In this document: positions 4,847 through 15,220 of the stretch, one piece after another
How the letters are laid out: every line of letters begins with the position of its first letter
Position numbering within the stretch: the first letter of the stretch is position 1
Source of the DNA: a virus
IMG/VR virus record: IMGVR_UViG_3300003691_000065
Coordinates: 1-21,541 of that record
Direction: 5' to 3' (one strand)
Length of the DNA stretch: 21,541 nucleotides
Notes under the pieces: generated by a model
What the model saw: only the letters and a program-made list of their open reading frames with translations
What the model was told of the DNA's origin: nothing
The model's database searches: none
Position numbers and translations under genes: made by a program

Positions 4847-5230
4847 ATGCAATGGATTAAAAATAATGTAGTTGGCTTGTTTGGTTTGGTATTTGTAGTA
4901 GGGGGTTCCTTAGGGACTCTCTACGTTAAGAGCGCAATCAATACTAAAGTAAATGACCAGCTAAGTGGTTCAGTTACTAACCTAACTGCTGCCCATGCTC
5001 ATCAAGCAACTACTCTTCACGGACAAGTAACTAGGCTAACTAGGCTTGAAGGTAAGATAGAAAACTTTTCCAGATCTAATGATAGGCTAATACTAGCCCT
5101 CGACAAACTTGATGTCGTGTATGGATCTATGAGAGTTGTAGGTGCTGTTCAAGATGAGCGCATAAGGCAATTAACTGTCAAAATAGATAAGATAGACTCA
5201 ACACTTAAAGAGAAACACTATGAAGATTAA
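4847..5230 (+). CDS. Small membrane-anchored protein with helical tail, 127 aa
   Basis: The N-terminus has one hydrophobic segment (about residues 8-27, VVGLFGLVFVVGGSLGTLYV) preceded by Lys5 and followed by Lys28, so it is predicted to be membrane-anchored or an uncleaved signal anchor. The rest (about 30-127) is hydrophilic and helical with a heptad-like spacing of Leu/Ile/Val, suggesting an elongated coiled coil. I cannot assign a family. A membrane protein between the capsid and connector genes is odd. It could be a misplaced lysis or spanin-like factor, a superinfection-exclusion protein or a minor virion protein. It uses AGG, AGA and ATA codons, unlike the capsid gene just before it. 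Its end overlaps the next gene by 11 bases. Confidence 0.7.
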   Translation: MQWIKNNVVGLFGLVFVVGGSLGTLYVKSAINTKVNDQLSGSVTNLTAAHAHQATTLHGQVTRLTRLEGKIENFSRSNDRLILALDKLDVVYGSMRVVGAVQDERIRQLTVKIDKIDSTLKEKHYED

Positions 5231-6790: not shown

Positions 6791-8287
6791 ATGTCGATTG
6801 AAATTACTAACTTTGTTGATGTCAACATCTCCGTATCACCTACTGGTGTCGGGGGTGGTAACTTTGGCATCTTAGGTTTTCTTACCCTAAGCTCTGATGC
6901 AGCCTTAGTAGGTAAGGAAATTACCCCAACAGAACGATCAAGAGCTTACACTAGCTTACTTAGTGTTGGTGGAGACTGGAGCACCTCTTCTGAGGTCTAT
7001 AAAGCTGCATCTGCATTCTATGGCCAAACACCTACACCAACAGACTTCTTAGTTATTGTTAACTATACCACAAGTCAGTCTGGCTCTTTGGTTGGTGGTG
7101 GTTCTGACACTCTTGCAGAGTTGCAGACTATTTCCTCTGGCACACTAGACTTCTCTGTAGATGGCAACCTTGCCACACTAACTACTTTAGACTTCTCTAG
7201 TGCAACCAGCCTAGGTACTGATGGAGATGCTACAAGCGTTGCTGCTATCATTCAGGCTTCCCTAGACTTAGAAGCTACTGGAGCAGAAGATAGTGAGGTT
7301 ACCCACAACGGCTATCAATTTGTCATTACTTCTAATGCGGTAGGTGTATCTTCTGAGGTTGGCTTTGCTACTGGTACTGCTGCTGAAGCACTGGGCCTTA
7401 ATGTAGGTGTAGCTAAGTCCGAAGCTGGTATTGTGGCTGAGACAGCACTTGATGCACTATCTGGAGCCGTAAATAAAGGCGTGTTCTGGGTTGGTACAGA
7501 CTTGCACAAAGACTTGCGAGATAAGTTGATCTCTGAGGAGACTGGTTCTGTCAACTCTACAAATGAGATTGCTGCTTTCTGTGAAGCTAACAAGCGCATC
7601 TTCCTAAACACTTCTAATGATCTGACTACCCTAAACTCCACCACCGGCCATACGGCTGCTGAGATGAAAGCAGGTACTTATCGGTTCACCCTTAGTTGCT
7701 TTAGTAAGAACCCTAACCTGTATCCAGGATCATCTGTATTTGGTCGGGCTGCCTCAGTAAACTTCTCTGGTGTTGGCTCCACTATTACCCTGAACCTTAA
7801 ACAGGCTCCCGGTATTACTGCTGAAGACCTTACCCCTTCTGAGTTTGCTAAGCTGCGTGAGAACTATGTATCTGCTGTAGTGCAGATTGGAAGTTCAGCA
7901 AATGCCTTTACAGACTCTCGTATGGCGTCTGGCTCATGGTTGGATACTACCCACGGTATTATGTGGTTAGAGAATCGCTGTGAAGTTGACATGTTTAACT
8001 TGTTGTATACTACCAACACCAAGATCCCGTTTACCCAGACAGGCATTAACACAACTGCTGCAACCCTAATCCGGTCTCTGCAAGCTGCTGTACGAAATGG
8101 TTTGGCTGGCCCCGGCTTCTTGCCCGATGGCACTTACTTGCCTGAAGGATACATTGTTGAAGTAGTTCCTTTGGCTGACGTACCTGTATCCGATAAGGGT
8201 AATAGGTTGTACGCAGGGTTGTCTTTCAAAATGGTCGGTGCTGGCGCTCTACACGAAATCGCTATCTCCGGTGAATTCTCAGAATAA
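6791..8287 (+). CDS. Contractile tail sheath protein (DUF3383, PF11863)
   Basis: Forms the contractile outer tube of the tail. The 498 residues match DUF3383 throughout. The start is IEITNFVDVNISVSPTGVGG followed by NFGILGFLT, then an ITPTERSRAY element and YKAASAFYGQTPTP. An inserted beta/alpha domain spans about residues 115-215 (LDFSVDGNLATLTTLDFSS and after). The core then has GSWLDTTHGIMWLENRCEVD and a characteristic C-terminus SFKMVGAGALHEIAISGEF. The insertion is normal for the family and probably faces outward. Together with the DUF3277 tube, it shows the virion is a myovirus. An AGGAG at 6779-6783 precedes the start. Confidence 0.93.
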   Translation: MSIEITNFVDVNISVSPTGVGGGNFGILGFLTLSSDAALVGKEITPTERSRAYTSLLSVGGDWSTSSEVYKAASAFYGQTPTPTDFLVIVNYTTSQSGSLVGGGSDTLAELQTISSGTLDFSVDGNLATLTTLDFSSATSLGTDGDATSVAAIIQASLDLEATGAEDSEVTHNGYQFVITSNAVGVSSEVGFATGTAAEALGLNVGVAKSEAGIVAETALDALSGAVNKGVFWVGTDLHKDLRDKLISEETGSVNSTNEIAAFCEANKRIFLNTSNDLTTLNSTTGHTAAEMKAGTYRFTLSCFSKNPNLYPGSSVFGRAASVNFSGVGSTITLNLKQAPGITAEDLTPSEFAKLRENYVSAVVQIGSSANAFTDSRMASGSWLDTTHGIMWLENRCEVDMFNLLYTTNTKIPFTQTGINTTAATLIRSLQAAVRNGLAGPGFLPDGTYLPEGYIVEVVPLADVPVSDKGNRLYAGLSFKMVGAGALHEIAISGEFSE

Positions 8288-8299
8288 GGAACCTACAGA

Positions 8300-8785
8300 A
8301 TGTATCAATATAGTTTCGCCAATGTAGACCTCATGTTAGATGTGGACTACCCCGGCAATACAAACAACAAGTCTTTTAAAGTACAGGGCTTTGGCACAGG
8401 CGAAGGATTGATTAACATCGTCCGACGTGCTCCTATTGCAACAACTCAGTTTGGTGCTTACGGTGATATGGTTGTGTCTATGCAGCGTATTAGAGCTGGT
8501 GACTTAGTATTCCCAGTACTAATGAATGCTCCCGAGAACAAGGCTTTGCAAGACTATGCAAACTACTTCCAGCAGCAGGCTGATGACAACGGACAACTAG
8601 TTAAACCTATTCAAGGTCGCTTAGTTGACAACATGGGTAAGGATGAGGCTACACTAGATAATGGTGTAATCTTAGCTATGCCCGCTATGGTACGTGGTCA
8701 GAACATGAACACAGTAACATGGGTCATTACCTTTGAGCGAGTCACGTTTGATCGTAACACTGGTGCAGATTTCCAAGAACTGTAA
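8300..8785 (+). CDS. Tail tube protein (DUF3277, PF11681)
   Basis: Builds the rigid inner tube through which DNA is ejected. The 161-residue protein matches DUF3277: an N-terminal YSFANVDLMLDVD strand, a FGTGEGLINIVRRAP segment, then QFGAYGDMVVSMQRIRAGDL and a C-terminal NTVTWVITFERVTFDRNTG. It follows the sheath gene with only a 12-base gap, so the two are co-transcribed. A hairpin lies just downstream (8794-8820), which may reduce read-through into the chaperone gene. Confidence 0.9.
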   Translation: MYQYSFANVDLMLDVDYPGNTNNKSFKVQGFGTGEGLINIVRRAPIATTQFGAYGDMVVSMQRIRAGDLVFPVLMNAPENKALQDYANYFQQQADDNGQLVKPIQGRLVDNMGKDEATLDNGVILAMPAMVRGQNMNTVTWVITFERVTFDRNTGADFQEL

Positions 8786-8835: not shown

Positions 8836-9231
8836 ATGTCAAATGGATACACAGGAACTTTAGTAGACGGTAGGAAGATATACATTCCAAACTGGTCGGT
8901 AAAGGTTCAGTACGAGAACTTGACTCAGGCATGCAAGTACCTAGGTCAAGACAACGTTATCAAAATATCATCCCTAAATGTTCCAGCAGCAATGTTGGCA
9001 GTAATGGGATCTGAGGATGCAAAGGCTAGCACTGAGTTACTATTACACTTTACTCAACAAGCTAACCTAGACGGTGATAAGATTACAGACAGTAGCCTGG
9101 ATGAAGTAGGCATGGATATTGTAATTGAGATCTTTACACATGTCATGTTCTCACAGTACAATGATTTTTTCGTATCAGGTTTAGCAAAGGCACACTCCCA
9201 AAACAAGTCGAGTCAGGACAAGAAAGACTAG
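8836..9231 (+). CDS. Tail assembly chaperone, zero-frame product (G-type)
   Basis: This 131-residue protein lies between the tube and tape-measure genes, where tailed phages code the chaperone that coats the tape measure during tail assembly (lambda gpG role). Residues read NWSVKVQYENLTQACKYLG, then VPAAMLAVMGSEDA and a helical MDIVIEIFTHVMFSQYN, and end in a Ser/Gln/Lys-rich tail (SQNKSSQDKKD). The gene holds a programmed frameshift site near its 3' end (9165-9171), so a fraction of ribosomes should make a longer product instead. A TTTGGAGAA ribosome site lies at 8823-8831. No sequence family is claimed; position plus the frameshift make the role strong. Confidence 0.85.
   Translation: MSNGYTGTLVDGRKIYIPNWSVKVQYENLTQACKYLGQDNVIKISSLNVPAAMLAVMGSEDAKASTELLLHFTQQANLDGDKITDSSLDEVGMDIVIEIFTHVMFSQYNDFFVSGLAKAHSQNKSSQDKKD
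9165..9171 (+). promoter_or_regulatory. Programmed -1 ribosomal frameshift site (T TTT TTC)
   Basis: In the zero frame the codons are GAT TTT TTC (9163-9171), giving the classic X XXY YYZ heptamer T TTT TTC. Sliding back one base lets both tRNA-Phe re-pair on TTT TTT. The -1 frame has a TGA stop at 9162-9164, directly 5' of the heptamer, and is then open to 9434. The open -1 frame therefore begins exactly at the slip site. I did not find a convincing downstream stimulatory stem-loop by eye. Confidence 0.9.
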
Positions 9232-9444: not shown

Positions 9445-12400
9445 ATGGGTACACTTAAACTAGGAGCAAAGAACAAGTCACGTAGGGCAGTATCTAAAGC
9501 TAGCAAGACTGTTCCTAGTGATGTGACTGGCAGCACACCTTCAGGGTATGTTGCTGGTGGATACTCACAACCAGAAGAAGAACAACAGTTTGTAGACCTC
9601 AGAAACTCTCGATATGATACGGCAAGGAAAGAAAACAGTGTCAGGACTACCATGTCAGATACTGTGGAAAGTGAAGTACTAGAGAGTGTACTAGAAGAGG
9701 AAGTATACAACAACGAAACTGGTGAGACCTACTTTAGGGGTGTAGAAGTTCAGACACTTGCCGATGGCACTCCCCTTGGCTCCTCTGCTGCCACCGTACT
9801 ACTGGGGAGAGTTGGACATGTAGAGGGTAGGATTCAGGCAGGTATAAAGCATGTGGCTATGGGAGGAACTCTGTCAGGATCTTCCAAGCTAGAGTCTATG
9901 GCAATGCTAAGCGAGTTTAGGAAACAGTTGGGTGCAGACCCTAAAGTTTGGGCTGAGCAGATAGATGTAGATGAGTCTGTAGGACTTCCCAACTCTGCAC
10001 AAGATATAAGAACTGTCTACTCTATGATGGGAAAGACTTCTGGAGAGTACCTAGACAAAGGGCCAGGAGCAGCACTAGCTGGACATACCTTGCTAGAAGA
10101 GAAGAAAGGTAAGAATGAGGATGACCTTGCACTTGCTTACCAATACATAAAAGACATCTCTGAGCACTATGTACACAAGAACTCTCAGGGAGAGGCAAGA
10201 AGCAGCAGAATAAGCCAGACAGAGGCTGCACTAACTGCTAGGTTTATGGATGGCATGTTTGCTGATGGTTCTAAAGCCATCATACCTCTACCCAATGAGA
10301 CTGGGGTAAGTGGGCTTGTACCCACTATGTCCTATCGTGGCTTTATGGGAACTTCCTTTGACAGAGTAGGGTTTGCCAACTTTGCAGAAGAGCGAGGCAT
10401 TAGTGCAGACAGCCTTGCAGAAGAAGATAGAAATATGTATTGGGAGAACATGGGTAGTGCCAAAGACTCCCTAGTTCCCCGCAAAAGGTTGGGCAAGAAT
10501 GCTACTGATAAAGATAAAGAGAAGGCTAAGTCTGACCAGACCCACACATATGACACATTACTGTATAAGGCTCATGAAGCAAGGAAGATTTTAAGAAAGC
10601 ACTTCCCTACAAATTTTAATGAGTCAATGGGTACTGTGAGGTCTATAAACAAAAACAGGGCCTATGACGACCAAGTAGTAAGTATAAATCTTCAGAATGA
10701 GGCAAACATACAGGGACTGGATTTCTCCCAAAGATCTCATGAGGTAGAAGACTTAGGTCACAACCCAGAAGTAGTAGGTAAAGGATCTAGTAGGGGTGGC
10801 ATGTACGGAGACAGACCCCTATCTGAAGTAGATGTATTCGTAGAGAAAGGCAGAGAGGCAGAGGAAGCAGCACTTGCCAAGGTTGAGGAGGTTCCTGATG
10901 GATTCTTGGGAATCAAACAAAGAACTCCAGAATGGTACAAAGCTAGGGAAGGGCTAGTTACCGCCTCAGGACTTATAGATGAGAAAGGCCGAGAGCTTAC
11001 CGCAGATGAAATTGGGGAGGAGTTGGCCAAGAGGAAGGTTGGGCTTTCTGATGAGTTTATTGGAAATGATTATACAGAAGAAGGCACAAAGAATGAGGCC
11101 AAGGTACTAAGCTCGTTCTTAATGAGCCAGAGAAAGTTGGGCAACAACTTCACTCATGAAGAAGTGGGCCTGATGCTTAATAAGGATCTTCCTGGAATGG
11201 GAGCTTCACCGGACGGCAAGCTAAAGTTAGATGGAAAGAATGCAGGTCTGATAGAGCTTAAGTATCTAACTACCAGTAAAATGAAAGGAGCACTAGAGAA
11301 GTATACTCCACAGATGCAATTGCAGATGATGGTTACTGATGAGAAAGAGATGTATTTCCATGCCTACGATAGGTATACTGATAACACTATTACACACAAA
11401 GTATTTGCTGACAAAGATTATCAGGAAGAGCTTAAGCGTAGGATAGATAAAGCAGTAGCTATTGGTGAGGGACTTGACGTAAAAGATCTGTACGAGCTAG
11501 AGCAAGGCAGGAAGAAGATGGAACAAACAAAAGCGGAAAGGAAAGCAGGAGTTGTTTCTGACGACACCTCTGGACAAACTAAGTCATTCTCGATGAGCAG
11601 TAAGCCAGACCTTCCAATGAAGGGGTTTAGGGTTCCCAGCAAGCCCATAGATAATATGGAGAAGCTGTACGGGCCACTAGATCAAGCAGAGCTAAACTGG
11701 AGGAACTCTGACCCAGCCAAAGACTTTATACTGGCTGCTAGTGATAAGGAAAAGAAGGAAGCAAAAGCTAGTCAAGAGAAAGCTGATGCAGATAAGAAAG
11801 CTGCTGATGCTGCCCAGAAGACAGCCAAGGCACTAAGCACACTTGGTAAAGAAGCTAAGGATGCAGCAAACGTACTTGGAGAGATAGCTGGCTTTGTGTT
11901 GGGTGGAGACTCTAAGTCTACTGATCTTAGGATTAGGGCTGGAGCTGCCGGACTTCAAGAGAAGGACTTGTCTGGACTTGAGAGGCTGCTAAAGGTTAAT
12001 GGTTTAGACCAAGCAGCATCGAACAGGCTAGTAGCTGGTGCTACAGATGTGGCAGAAACCTACTCTGATAAAGCAAAAGCTGGAGCAGCCTACAAGGATC
12101 TTATGGCAGCAAAGGGTGCAACTGGTATTCCAGAAATCATGAACATGGAGCTACACTCACTAGAAGAGAGATCGGGGTTAGACTCTCAGCAGACTATGGC
12201 CATGATCTTGAAAGAGAATCAGTCGCTCAAGTCTCCTTATGCCAAGATGGTGCATGCAAATATGTATGGTAACTTGGATGGGATAACAGCTATACGGGAA
12301 AGTGTAACTCCCACACAGTTGGCTATGGCTACCAACCCCACCTACAACTTCGAGAACCAAGACACTACCCATGCCGGAGTTCAAAATACAGAGATACAGA

Positions 12401-13095
12401 AAGAGGAGGCTGCACTACAGACTACAGACTGGCTAGGTAGAACCTTTGGAGAAGCTGGAGGAGAAGTTTTAGGCGGCCTTAAGATAGCTGCTGAACTTGC
12501 TGGTTCGGCAACCATGACCTACTTGATGGGCAAGGGAATTTACTCTACCATTAAAGGTGCTAAGAAGGTTGGGCCAGTGCTTAAGGGCGCAGGCAATGTA
12601 ACAGCCAAGACTAGTTCTACAGTAGTGAACAAGACTCTTAACGTAAGTAAGTCTGTCCTAAATACTAGGGCTGCTGCTATGGCTCTGAAAGCTACCCCAA
12701 TGGCTGCGGCTGTGGGAGGAGCTTCTTACGCTGCGAGAGAGCTGGGTGGTATTGAGGATGATGGCTCGTTCGCTGACAGTGCTATGGATGTGCTAGAGTT
12801 TGCTGCAACAGGAGCTGCTATTGGGTATATAGTTCCTGGAGTGGGTACTATTGTAGGAGGAGGTATTGGCTTGTTGGGTGGTTTAGCTAATGAAGCATAT
12901 GAAAGCTTCAACAGTGATCCCGCAGTTCCAAGCAGGGCTATACCAATGCCTAATGCAGACCTAGATAGGAAAGCAACAGCACCTGTAATTAACATTGAAG
13001 TAAGCAACTCCATTAGCAAAGATCTCATAGTTACCGAAGTCAACGAAGACGGCGAGCAGGTTCACTATGGCGAAGATAGGGCTATTGGTCACTAA
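9445..13095 (+). CDS. Tape-measure protein with embedded lambda-exonuclease-like domain
   Basis: This is the largest gene (1216 aa), placed directly after the G/GT-type chaperone, so it should set tail length and line the tube. It is modular. Residues 1-484 are an unrecognised, partly charged region with a basic N-terminus (KNKSRRAVSKASK). Residues 485-661 are a YqaJ/lambda-exonuclease nuclease domain, described separately. Residues about 767-816 are a Lys/Ala/Glu-rich coiled coil (KADADKKAADAAQKTAKAL). A helical region follows to about 1000. The C-terminal part has hydrophobic, Gly/Ala-rich segments at about 1006-1030, 1077-1095 and 1119-1152, typical of tape measures that enter the host membrane. 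Arg is often AGG/AGA. An alternative reading, that it is not the tape measure, is unlikely because no other large gene follows. Confidence 0.85.
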   Translation: MGTLKLGAKNKSRRAVSKASKTVPSDVTGSTPSGYVAGGYSQPEEEQQFVDLRNSRYDTARKENSVRTTMSDTVESEVLESVLEEEVYNNETGETYFRGVEVQTLADGTPLGSSAATVLLGRVGHVEGRIQAGIKHVAMGGTLSGSSKLESMAMLSEFRKQLGADPKVWAEQIDVDESVGLPNSAQDIRTVYSMMGKTSGEYLDKGPGAALAGHTLLEEKKGKNEDDLALAYQYIKDISEHYVHKNSQGEARSSRISQTEAALTARFMDGMFADGSKAIIPLPNETGVSGLVPTMSYRGFMGTSFDRVGFANFAEERGISADSLAEEDRNMYWENMGSAKDSLVPRKRLGKNATDKDKEKAKSDQTHTYDTLLYKAHEARKILRKHFPTNFNESMGTVRSINKNRAYDDQVVSINLQNEANIQGLDFSQRSHEVEDLGHNPEVVGKGSSRGGMYGDRPLSEVDVFVEKGREAEEAALAKVEEVPDGFLGIKQRTPEWYKAREGLVTASGLIDEKGRELTADEIGEELAKRKVGLSDEFIGNDYTEEGTKNEAKVLSSFLMSQRKLGNNFTHEEVGLMLNKDLPGMGASPDGKLKLDGKNAGLIELKYLTTSKMKGALEKYTPQMQLQMMVTDEKEMYFHAYDRYTDNTITHKVFADKDYQEELKRRIDKAVAIGEGLDVKDLYELEQGRKKMEQTKAERKAGVVSDDTSGQTKSFSMSSKPDLPMKGFRVPSKPIDNMEKLYGPLDQAELNWRNSDPAKDFILAASDKEKKEAKASQEKADADKKAADAAQKTAKALSTLGKEAKDAANVLGEIAGFVLGGDSKSTDLRIRAGAAGLQEKDLSGLERLLKVNGLDQAASNRLVAGATDVAETYSDKAKAGAAYKDLMAAKGATGIPEIMNMELHSLEERSGLDSQQTMAMILKENQSLKSPYAKMVHANMYGNLDGITAIRESVTPTQLAMATNPTYNFENQDTTHAGVQNTEIQKEEAALQTTDWLGRTFGEAGGEVLGGLKIAAELAGSATMTYLMGKGIYSTIKGAKKVGPVLKGAGNVTAKTSSTVVNKTLNVSKSVLNTRAAAMALKATPMAAAVGGASYAARELGGIEDDGSFADSAMDVLEFAATGAAIGYIVPGVGTIVGGGIGLLGGLANEAYESFNSDPAVPSRAIPMPNADLDRKATAPVINIEVSNSISKDLIVTEVNEDGEQVHYGEDRAIGH
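10897..11439 (+). other. PD-(D/E)XK nuclease domain (YqaJ / lambda exonuclease type) inside the tape measure
   Basis: Residues 485-665 of the tape-measure protein carry the whole motif order of lambda-type exonucleases. QRTPEWYKAREGLVTAS contains W497 and R501, followed by the TAS of the family. GTKNEAKVLSSF has the first acid, E551. GASPDGKL has D590, and GLIELKYL has E604 and K606, giving D-x13-E-x-K. PQMQLQMMVT holds Q627 at the conserved Gln position. It lines up well with the SPDG...LELK and QVQYSMWVT stretches of lambda exonuclease as I recall them. In the family these residues bind metal ions and process 5' ends of duplex DNA. No key residue is missing, so the domain looks catalytically competent. 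Activity itself is not shown by the sequence. Confidence 0.9.
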
Positions 13096-13111: not shown

Positions 13112-14077
13112 ATGCGGTCTACATTCGGACAAGAAATATTCTTGACTGTCCACAAGAAAGATAGCAATAGTGTAGTGTTTAAGGCAGATGGGCTTAGGGT
13201 TGATTTTAACGTTATGCTCATTGACGGATTTAGTAGAGGGACATTTACTCTCTACAATCTGGCCCCAGAGACTATCAGAGCCATAGCAAGTAGGGACAAC
13301 TATGTAACGCTTAAAACTAGGTTGCATGGTGGTTCACTAACTACTATAGCTAACAGCTACTACATCAGCAACATCATGGAAGAGAAGAAGATACCAGAGA
13401 GTGTCACTACCCTGTACTGCTTCGATAATCTAAAGAGACAGTACTTAGAAAAGCCAGTAGATATTATCGTGAGGCAACCTACCCTTAGAAAGGAGGTGGA
13501 GCAGATACTCAATTATGTAGAGTACCCATCCAAGCCAGTATTTAAGTCCTTCCCCGAAGGCAGGCTAGGTGCTCAGTCGGGAAGGGAAGGACTTAAACAT
13601 GTTGGAACAGCCCAGAGATGTTTGACTGGATTGCAGAAGGCGCACAAGTTTAAGTTGTACACTGACCCCAGTGATGGGATTGTGTGTATGTACTTGCCAA
13701 GCTCTGATGAGTTGCGATACACCACACTGCAAAATAGGAATGCTGACGTAAAGCTACACACCAATAACATGCGGTCTAACCCTGTGATAGGTGTGGCTTC
13801 CCTGCTTGTAACTAGCAACTTAGATGGCAGGATTAGGCCCACCTCTGTACTAGACATAGCAGACTTGTTAACGTTTACTCCGGGTACAGATGAGACTACA
13901 CTACAACTGGCTCAGGGCTTCTTGCAGAATCATGTGGATGGCTTTACTAAGTATCAGACTATTACTGTACAGCATAAAGGATCTAACTATACCGACGCAT
14001 GGCACACAATAGCTACATGCACAGCTCCTACTAGGGGCAAGCACATGCACCCCAGAAATTGGCACAGTGGAAAATAA
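13112..14077 (+). CDS. Baseplate hub-like protein
   Basis: A 321-residue protein immediately after the tape measure. Its N-terminal part has the strand pattern common to hub proteins: LRVDFNVMLIDGFSRGTFTL, then YNLAPETIRAIASRDNYVTL, then a YYISNIMEEKKIPESVTTLY strand. A second domain includes GLQKAHKFKLYTDPSDGIVC, and the C-terminus (HVDGFTKYQTITVQHKGSNY) resembles the end of hub proteins that ends in a beta strand. It should connect tube to spike. A strong AGGAGG at 13098-13103 precedes ATG 13112. The family label is by pattern, so moderate confidence. Confidence 0.7.
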   Translation: MRSTFGQEIFLTVHKKDSNSVVFKADGLRVDFNVMLIDGFSRGTFTLYNLAPETIRAIASRDNYVTLKTRLHGGSLTTIANSYYISNIMEEKKIPESVTTLYCFDNLKRQYLEKPVDIIVRQPTLRKEVEQILNYVEYPSKPVFKSFPEGRLGAQSGREGLKHVGTAQRCLTGLQKAHKFKLYTDPSDGIVCMYLPSSDELRYTTLQNRNADVKLHTNNMRSNPVIGVASLLVTSNLDGRIRPTSVLDIADLLTFTPGTDETTLQLAQGFLQNHVDGFTKYQTITVQHKGSNYTDAWHTIATCTAPTRGKHMHPRNWHSGK

Positions 14078-14086
14078 GGAGACTAT

Positions 14087-15220
14087 ATGTCAGTCCTAAC
14101 ACCAGCCAGACTTAAGTACTCTTTAAATGGGACTGACCAAGTTATTAGGTTCCATTCAGTTATCTCAGAAGGCCACGAAGCCACGGCTGAGATAACTAAG
14201 TACCCAGTACAGTCTGGCTTTGAGGTAAGCAATCATTCTATTAGAAGAAATAGAAGAGTAGTAATTCAAGCTATTATATCGAATTACTTAATAGAGAATG
14301 GAAGTACTTCATACCAGTACTCTTCCTCAGACAACAGCAAAACCATATTTAAGATACTGAAAGATCTAGTAAACTTAAAGACTGAAGTGGAAGTAACAAC
14401 CAACCTAGGCATATACAAACCAGTAATCTTCACTAGCTTTAAGACAAAGCAAGCTGCTGGTTCTGTAGACTCTATGACAGTTATGCTAAGTGGAGAAGAG
14501 CTACAAGTAGCGGGCGCGGCTAATGCAGTCTCTCCAGTTACCGTCAATTGGACTACTGTACTCCAGGAAAACTTGCCTGCTAAGATAGAGGAGTTAGCTA
14601 GAGCTGGTCTTGTAGTCAAAGCTGGTGCAGTCATAGAAGAGGTTGAAGTAAGTCTTGGCGAAAGCTTCGCTATTGAAAACTACACAACTGCTGGCCAAGC
14701 CATCTTAACGACTTTTGAAGCTTCAGGGTTTGACGTAGTTAAAGATGCGTATAAGTATGTAGTCCACACCACTGATACAGACATATATCAAAAAGCCAAA
14801 GACTTGGTAGTACCATTTATTGAAGACAACATAGATCGAATTAAGGCTGGTGCTAAAGAGGTGGGAGGTTGCCTGGCCACAGGAGCCTCTACCCTAGTTG
14901 TTGATGAAGTCATTGACCGAGTAGACACAGCAATGGGTAGCTACAGACGATCTGCTTATGGCATTATATATGATGCTATGCTAATGTCTAAGCATGACCT
15001 AGGTCAGAGTTTGATTGGTATGTCAACTGGTTGTGTAGTTAGAGGAATCTCTGGCTTTGAAGATCAATTTAAGCATCAGCCGGGTGAGTCAATACCTACA
15101 GCTACAGAAATTATTAACGGGGCAGTAAAAATAGGTAAAGACCTAGTATCCCCAGACAAGAACAGTAAGGGTATAGTAACTACTGAGACACTTTTAACTA
15201 AAGTTACTTACCCGCTTTAG
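14087..15220 (+). CDS. Dit-like baseplate / tail protein
   Basis: A 377-residue protein whose N-terminus matches the Dit-like N-terminal domain of phage tail proteins: RFHSVISEGHEATAEITKYP, then VQSGFEVSNHSIRRNRRVVI, then QAIISNYL. Later come LGIYKPVIFTSFKTKQAAGS and VDSMTVMLSGEELQVA, the strands closing that domain (to about residue 145). Residues about 150-377 are mostly helical and unrecognised. Its role is to join the tube end to the baseplate. The TAG stop at 15218-15220 lies inside the next ribosome site (TAGGAGGTG). Confidence 0.72.
   Translation: MSVLTPARLKYSLNGTDQVIRFHSVISEGHEATAEITKYPVQSGFEVSNHSIRRNRRVVIQAIISNYLIENGSTSYQYSSSDNSKTIFKILKDLVNLKTEVEVTTNLGIYKPVIFTSFKTKQAAGSVDSMTVMLSGEELQVAGAANAVSPVTVNWTTVLQENLPAKIEELARAGLVVKAGAVIEEVEVSLGESFAIENYTTAGQAILTTFEASGFDVVKDAYKYVVHTTDTDIYQKAKDLVVPFIEDNIDRIKAGAKEVGGCLATGASTLVVDEVIDRVDTAMGSYRRSAYGIIYDAMLMSKHDLGQSLIGMSTGCVVRGISGFEDQFKHQPGESIPTATEIINGAVKIGKDLVSPDKNSKGIVTTETLLTKVTYPL

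Follow-up and report, generated by a model that had tools for sequence, protein, structure and literature searches.

Phages of the family Chaseviridae probably carry a DNA end-trimming enzyme in their tails and deliver it with the genome

The tape measure protein (TMP) encoded in a 21,541-bp virus record (the window, that is, the whole stretch of DNA analysed here) almost certainly contains an intact and conserved nuclease domain of the lambda-exonuclease/YqaJ type. The known roles of tape measure proteins are those of ruler, pore former and vehicle for wall-cutting enzymes. Sequence comparisons identify the embedded nuclease as a family-wide trait of both Chaseviridae subfamilies and their uncultured relatives, and the tails of this whole phage family probably contain an enzyme that trims DNA ends and is delivered with the genome. 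Such an exonuclease, conserved and apparently active in the ruler throughout a family, would be evidence that DNA-processing enzymes are delivered by tails at entry, and would make RecBCD escape and the circularisation of entering ends directly testable in cultured coliphages (ST32, 4HA13, phiEcoM-GJ1).

The genes of the window are those of a myophage head and tail: portal, a protease-like protein, major head protein, sheath, a tube-like protein and a tail assembly chaperone (TAC), together with a 1216-aa ORF, baseplate hub, a Dit-like protein, spike and baseplate genes. The closest cultured phages by sheath are Chaseviridae (about 36–41% sheath identity), with an identical structural gene order, and judging from its predicted genes the window represents the structural module of a myophage resembling Chaseviridae. 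The phage is known from this 21.5-kb fragment; the whole-genome traits of Chaseviridae, a genome of 50–57 kb and a single-subunit RNA polymerase, were looked for in relatives. Between the major head protein and the neck genes, a small protein (4847–5230) gave a weak Rz-like spanin match (PHROG 739, 8e-4). The 1216-aa ORF is the predicted tape measure gene by its position, as the longest tail gene between TAC and baseplate hub/Dit. It starts with ATG, with the Shine-Dalgarno-like GAGGAAAC upstream. The features of this region are:

6791–8287, + strand, tail sheath (DUF3383; Pfam 6.5e-61, PHROG 205)
8300–8785, + strand, tail tube-like structural protein (KPP10_Orf10; Pfam/PHROG profile searches)
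8836–9231, + strand, TAC (PHROG 11820, 8e-8; Pfam TAC_15, 5e-4, slightly below cutoff)
9445–13095, + strand, predicted TMP with embedded nuclease, 1216 aa (longest ORF, between TAC and hub)
9445–10896, + strand, TMP N-terminal region, residues 1–484 (AF2 mean pLDDT 62.7; low-confidence 1–112, helical 113–395, low-confidence 396–484)
10897–11460, + strand, lambda-exonuclease/YqaJ (PD-(D/E)XK) domain, residues 485–672 (profiles, AF2, structure alignment)
11461–13092, + strand, TMP C-terminal region (charged/Ala-rich stretch, then a hydrophobic Gly-rich segment, residues 1126–1147, by hydropathy scan)
13112–14077, + strand, baseplate hub (PHROG 196, 1e-15)
14087–15220, + strand, Dit-like tail protein/tube initiator (Pfam Dit_like, 6.5e-21)

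A first-pass annotation, made from the sequence alone, had placed a lambda-exonuclease/YqaJ domain inside the tape measure, and profile and structure searches bore this out. Pfam YqaJ (PF09588) matches TMP residues 496–632 over profile positions 1–148 of 150 (E 4e-6; 27.6 bits versus a cutoff of 22), PHROG 434, a RecE-like recombination exonuclease, matches the domain at 3.4e-8, and the solved exonuclease LHK-Exo was found with the single sequence at 4.4e-7. For the domain profile and the AF2 model we used an alignment of 40 relatives from IMG/VR, free-standing YqaJ proteins among them. This profile retrieved LHK-Exo from the PDB at 1.8e-67, and the model of residues 480–700 reached a pLDDT of 93.4 and a pTM of 0.87. 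LHK-Exo and lambda exonuclease took the top Foldseek ranks, with VIA-align Z scores of 18.8 and 17.5, followed by mimivirus R354 (14.9), a Haemophilus phage exonuclease (14.3) and Cas4-like proteins (about 11). That is, comparing a model with lambda exonuclease and PF09588, which the annotation had proposed as a check, recovered the PD-(D/E)XK fold. The annotated span (10897–11439) corresponds to residues 485–665; the modelled domain extends further, to about residue 672–700.

The catalytic residues of lambda exonuclease all have equivalents in the window (E85=E551, D119=D590, E129=E604, K131=K606), as do those of the 5′-phosphate pocket (W24=W497, R28=R501, S35=S508, S117=S588, Q157=Q623), where we take S35, S117 and Q157 to be pocket residues of lambda exonuclease. 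The roles of W24, R28, E85, D119 and K131 have been reviewed (PMC7496540). Six residues of the earlier list (W497, R501, E551, D590, E604 and K606) were thereby assigned correctly. Its Q627 was not, since Q157 corresponds to Q623, with which the motif QMQLQM begins, and Q627 is a different, neighbouring conserved Gln; the pocket serines S508 and S588 are present in the domain and were absent from that list. An enzyme that begins at the 5′ ends of DNA would be expected to retain the phosphate-pocket residues, and we counted their retention for an end-acting exonuclease. The TMP nuclease is likely to be catalytically active.

For the N-terminal region, a structure search with a poor AF2 model revealed no known fold (best structural Z 5.1). 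Pfam matched neither EndA nor DUF4157 in the window TMP, and an SLT transglycosylase was detected neither in it nor in the Nefertitivirinae TMPs scanned. Used as a query against IMG/VR, the whole 1216-aa protein found zero relatives because the TMP frame diverges fast; relatives were reached through the nuclease-domain alignment first and the sheath profile afterwards. Outside the nuclease, hhalign gave only weak signs that the TMP frames of different clades are homologous (E 0.002 N-terminal, 0.026 C-terminal), and none with Cleopatravirinae. The three Cleopatravirinae TMPs scanned contain two enzymes, YqaJ and a C-terminal SLT transglycosylase (L007:10548-14387, L008:10555-14172, L094:38683-42297).

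The first-pass annotation had also suggested looking for the same insertion in the tape measures of related phages. Since loci fetched by the nuclease must contain it, we took 80 IMG/VR loci fetched by the sheath profile as an unbiased sample. All 45 complete ORFs of at least 900 aa downstream of the sheath contain the nuclease (some are near-duplicates, and a few contigs were known already from the nuclease search). Just three long ORFs lack it (L137, L140 and L155), and each of them is ended by a contig edge after 401–589 residues. Among 58 TMPs from the sheath-fetched loci, the equivalents of E85 and D119 are kept in 58/58, that of E129 in 55 of the 56 covered and that of K131 in all 56 covered; the loss of catalytic residues in relatives that the annotation had considered was not seen. 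Environmental L188 has a T at the E129 position, by alignment only and possibly through an alignment slip. In two close pairs of Aeromonas phages, the dN/dS of the nuclease is 0.055–0.061: the domain is under purifying selection.

Cultured phages gave the same picture. Every Nefertitivirinae and Cleopatravirinae phage examined has a Pfam YqaJ match in its protein at the TMP position, with scores slightly below cutoff for the whole protein in VPs20 and PVN03, and a six-frame search of whole records exceeded the cutoff in 13/13. No second YqaJ copy was found in 13 near-complete relatives, the TMP domain being the only match in each of the 13. The gene at this position in Aeromonas phage ZPAH14 is annotated 'exonuclease/yqaJ'. 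When the Faunus domain was compared by tblastn with 50,697 phage records, Chaseviridae-type proteins ranked first, annotated as tail fiber, tape measure protein, virion structural protein, putative endonuclease or hypothetical; weaker matches, among the matches listed, were mostly annotated exonucleases. Of the 80 IMG/VR loci kept from the search by nuclease, 14 have the domain inside a long protein; in the others it is free-standing or truncated. The order TAC, TMP, hub is common to the 13 loci compared, as far as their contigs reach. In five phages with more remotely related sheaths (Bordetella IFTN9, Vibrio XM1, Escherichia fHy-Eco03, Pseudomonas K8 and Klebsiella RCIP0034), the proteins at the TMP position have 479–788 aa, and nuclease profiles found no match within roughly 12–19 kb around their sheath genes. 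In the nuclease tree, the TMP nucleases fall into three clades; a single clade was not rejected (p-AU 0.135), and the fusion may have one origin or several.

We then considered the genomes of relatives. Searches of 14 related genomes for members of the RecT, ERF, Rad52 and Gam families found none, so that the annealing partner in a Red-type exonuclease–annealase pair appears to be missing in these relatives unless it is divergent or supplied by the host. All 14 genomes have a FEN-type 5′-3′ exonuclease family match, and 13 of the 14 match single-subunit RNA polymerase (G001 and G002 over cutoff, G003 only below). Direct terminal repeats are present in the records of ZPAH14 (3373 bp), PM1 (2665 bp) and IMG/VR genome G002 (2688 bp, 99.8%), and one of 3120 bp is annotated in 4HA13. 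The terminal repeat of G001 measures 177 bp only, and the G003 and Faunus records have none. The repeats of ZPAH14 (L095/L096) and PM1 (L097/L098) include the RNA polymerase match; the ends of G002 are L101/L102. A Vibrio phage VPs20 gene annotated 'recombinase' (L002:1222-3117; OP056089.1 21816-23711) matches ribonucleotide reductase and is a misannotation.

That the nuclease is built into virions, as the first-pass annotation supposed, has support from one relative, in which the nuclease-bearing TMP is a prominent virion protein. In LC-MS/MS of 4HA13, whose TMP carries the YqaJ domain and a C-terminal transglycosylase, the list of top virion proteins is headed by the major capsid protein, with the TMP next; the part of that report available to us does not mention a nuclease in the tape measure and gives a tail length of 116.5 nm (PMC9699118). 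At 0.15 nm per residue, about 777 helical residues would be needed for this tail versus a TMP of 1204 aa. ST32 has a tail of 132 nm (PMC6266442), corresponding to about 880 helical residues versus 1241 aa. By our own arithmetic, the surplus of 360–430 residues leaves room for enzyme domains outside the tail span.

The reading that accounts best for these observations, to which we give about even chances, is that of an active 5′-3′ exonuclease delivered with the genome and resecting the genome's own ends. Delivery into the cell with the genome is likely. That the enzyme acts mainly on the phage's own genome ends is a little less than an even bet, and we infer that the phage's own linear genome would be the most economical target. 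In phage 80alpha, three TMP copies are present and TMPs are thought to be expelled with the DNA (PMC11661146); lambda exonuclease is a trimeric ring that prefers 5′-phosphorylated ends (PMC7496540). The first-pass annotation had suggested that these two symmetries could suit each other. The copy number and the trimer lend this some support, but the ring should exceed the tail lumen and could form only after ejection. Because a ring of the size of lambda exonuclease should not fit there, the domain would ride in the tail with the TMP as monomers, probably single or partly unfolded domains. On contraction, the TMP would be expelled ahead of the DNA; at the cytoplasmic face the domains might then fold, or assemble into what may be a trimer. 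They would then engage the 5′-phosphorylated ends of the incoming linear genome and resect them into 3′ single-stranded tails. With direct terminal repeats, complementary tails could lead to circularisation or end-joining by annealing, a step that might rely on host proteins or on an annealase not yet recognised as such. RecBCD acts poorly on ends that have long 3′ tails. Tentatively, and with the odds somewhat against it, resection of the entering ends by the TMP exonuclease would let the tail itself both shield the DNA from RecBCD and start circularisation via the terminal repeats, before phage gene expression.

Several points speak against this reading. The usual partner of lambda exonuclease is missing unless divergent or host-supplied, and the FEN-type exonuclease of all 14 relatives could process the ends; the absent annealase genes and this extra exonuclease weigh against a full Red-type pathway. 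A processive exonuclease on the entering genome could be harmful, the first-entering end would be near the TMP but the last end far away, and the terminal repeats are known from relatives, the window itself being a 21.5-kb fragment.

Other explanations were weighed against the same evidence. That a recombination gene and a tape measure gene were brought together only by an error of assembly or annotation has practically no chance: evidence supporting it was not found, and the fusion recurs, with frames open throughout, in separately sequenced cultured phages and dozens of contigs. This recurrence in independent sequences also established the joining frame, named by the annotation as a possible assembly error, as genuine. 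Misjoining of a free-standing exonuclease to the TMP was ruled out by the zero other YqaJ copies in 13 genomes. The nuclease might instead work in the producing cell, before assembly or after cleavage, in recombination, packaging or the processing of concatemers, and be part of the tail only incidentally. These phages have no other YqaJ enzyme, and the Spp001 and pAh6-C records show the TMP gene split into two or three ORFs (L003:12927-16387, L109:301-3895), with the nuclease-bearing product apart from the remainder. But the Spp001 split resembles a frame change next to an intact sibling; it lies directly after the nuclease and is probably a sequencing error, since the gene is unbroken in close relatives. 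TMP made late is normally bound by its chaperone, and a permanent fusion in 45/45 genes would be odd for a free-acting enzyme, which makes such a late cytoplasmic role improbable.

We consider it equally unlikely that the virion injects an attack enzyme which degrades host, plasmid or prophage DNA at breaks and forks, thereby supplying nucleotide pools or shutting down the host. Carriage of the nuclease in the virion fits this, and the endonuclease activity of Tme, a TMP-related effector of a contractile injection system (CIS), underlies DNA-related phenotypes of its own producer (PMC11126660). However, an exonuclease of the lambda type cannot act without a dsDNA end, and an intact circular chromosome has none; the domain is of the exonuclease type with a phosphate pocket and not an endonuclease, and the few copies per virion amount to a low dose. 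A DNA-end clamp, gripping the 5′-phosphorylated genome end in the neck or tail or piloting it through the membrane with catalysis secondary or absent, has a similarly small probability. The 80alpha TMP N-termini lie just below the DNA end (PMC11661146), and lambda exonuclease encircles DNA and has a 5′-phosphate pocket (PMC7496540), but a pure clamp should tolerate loss of the acidic and lysine catalytic residues, which are nearly invariant in 58 TMPs.

Compared with known systems, the window domain has its fold, catalytic residues and 5′-phosphate pocket in common with lambda exonuclease and LHK-Exo. Those are free-standing proteins of about 200–230 aa, often encoded beside an annealing protein gene, whereas the window domain is internal in a 1216-aa tail protein. 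The closest precedent for the fusion is Tme of the Streptomyces davawensis CIS (PMC11126660), likewise a nuclease on a TMP-like protein of a contractile tail and experimentally active. Its nuclease, however, is an endonuclease of the EndA/DRGH type (DRGH, H-N-N motifs) and forms the C-terminal part of a CIS effector that has 2247 aa and a DUF4157 domain; Tme is neither a phage TMP nor a lambda-type exonuclease. The Chaseviridae TMPs (4HA13 gp67, ST32 ORF66, PM1_051, Faunus gp63, ZPAH14 gp34) match the window in gene position and embedded YqaJ, but the window clade is distant (domain 20–26% identical); the published descriptions, as far as available to us, call them tape measure or tail fiber and leave the nuclease unmentioned. 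TMPs with muralytic or peptidase domains likewise embed an enzyme delivered at infection, but those domains act on peptidoglycan or protein, versus the DNA expected here. T4 gp2 protects entering DNA ends from RecBCD by capping. With it and other virion-carried end-protection proteins the TMP nuclease may share the purpose of shielding entering ends, although gp2 is an unrelated protein and caps ends rather than resecting them.

The first-pass annotation knew of no described example. A TMP–exonuclease fusion was indeed not found described in the open-access text examined, but the fusion is a family-wide trait, and the 'exonuclease' label of a few such genes (ZPAH14, LA93P1) is already on public record. 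Nuclease-in-TMP and virion presence are separately on record, and no joint statement of the two was found in the same literature. New here, among enzyme-bearing TMPs, are the enzyme class and its family-wide distribution.

Long YqaJ proteins also occur elsewhere. Those of Vibrio phage 1.183.O (605 aa, L111:2489-4306) and Pseudomonas phage USP_25 (561 aa, L112:2489-4174) were rejected as tail proteins: with an N-terminal YqaJ and a long C-terminal part without Pfam match, they are encoded directly after ERF instead. Within the sheath-fetched sample, the nuclease is kept in TMPs of 1593–1723 aa (L157:3523-8694, L170:12674-17845, L192:4336-9117, L193:9136-13923), whose greater length may correspond to longer tails.
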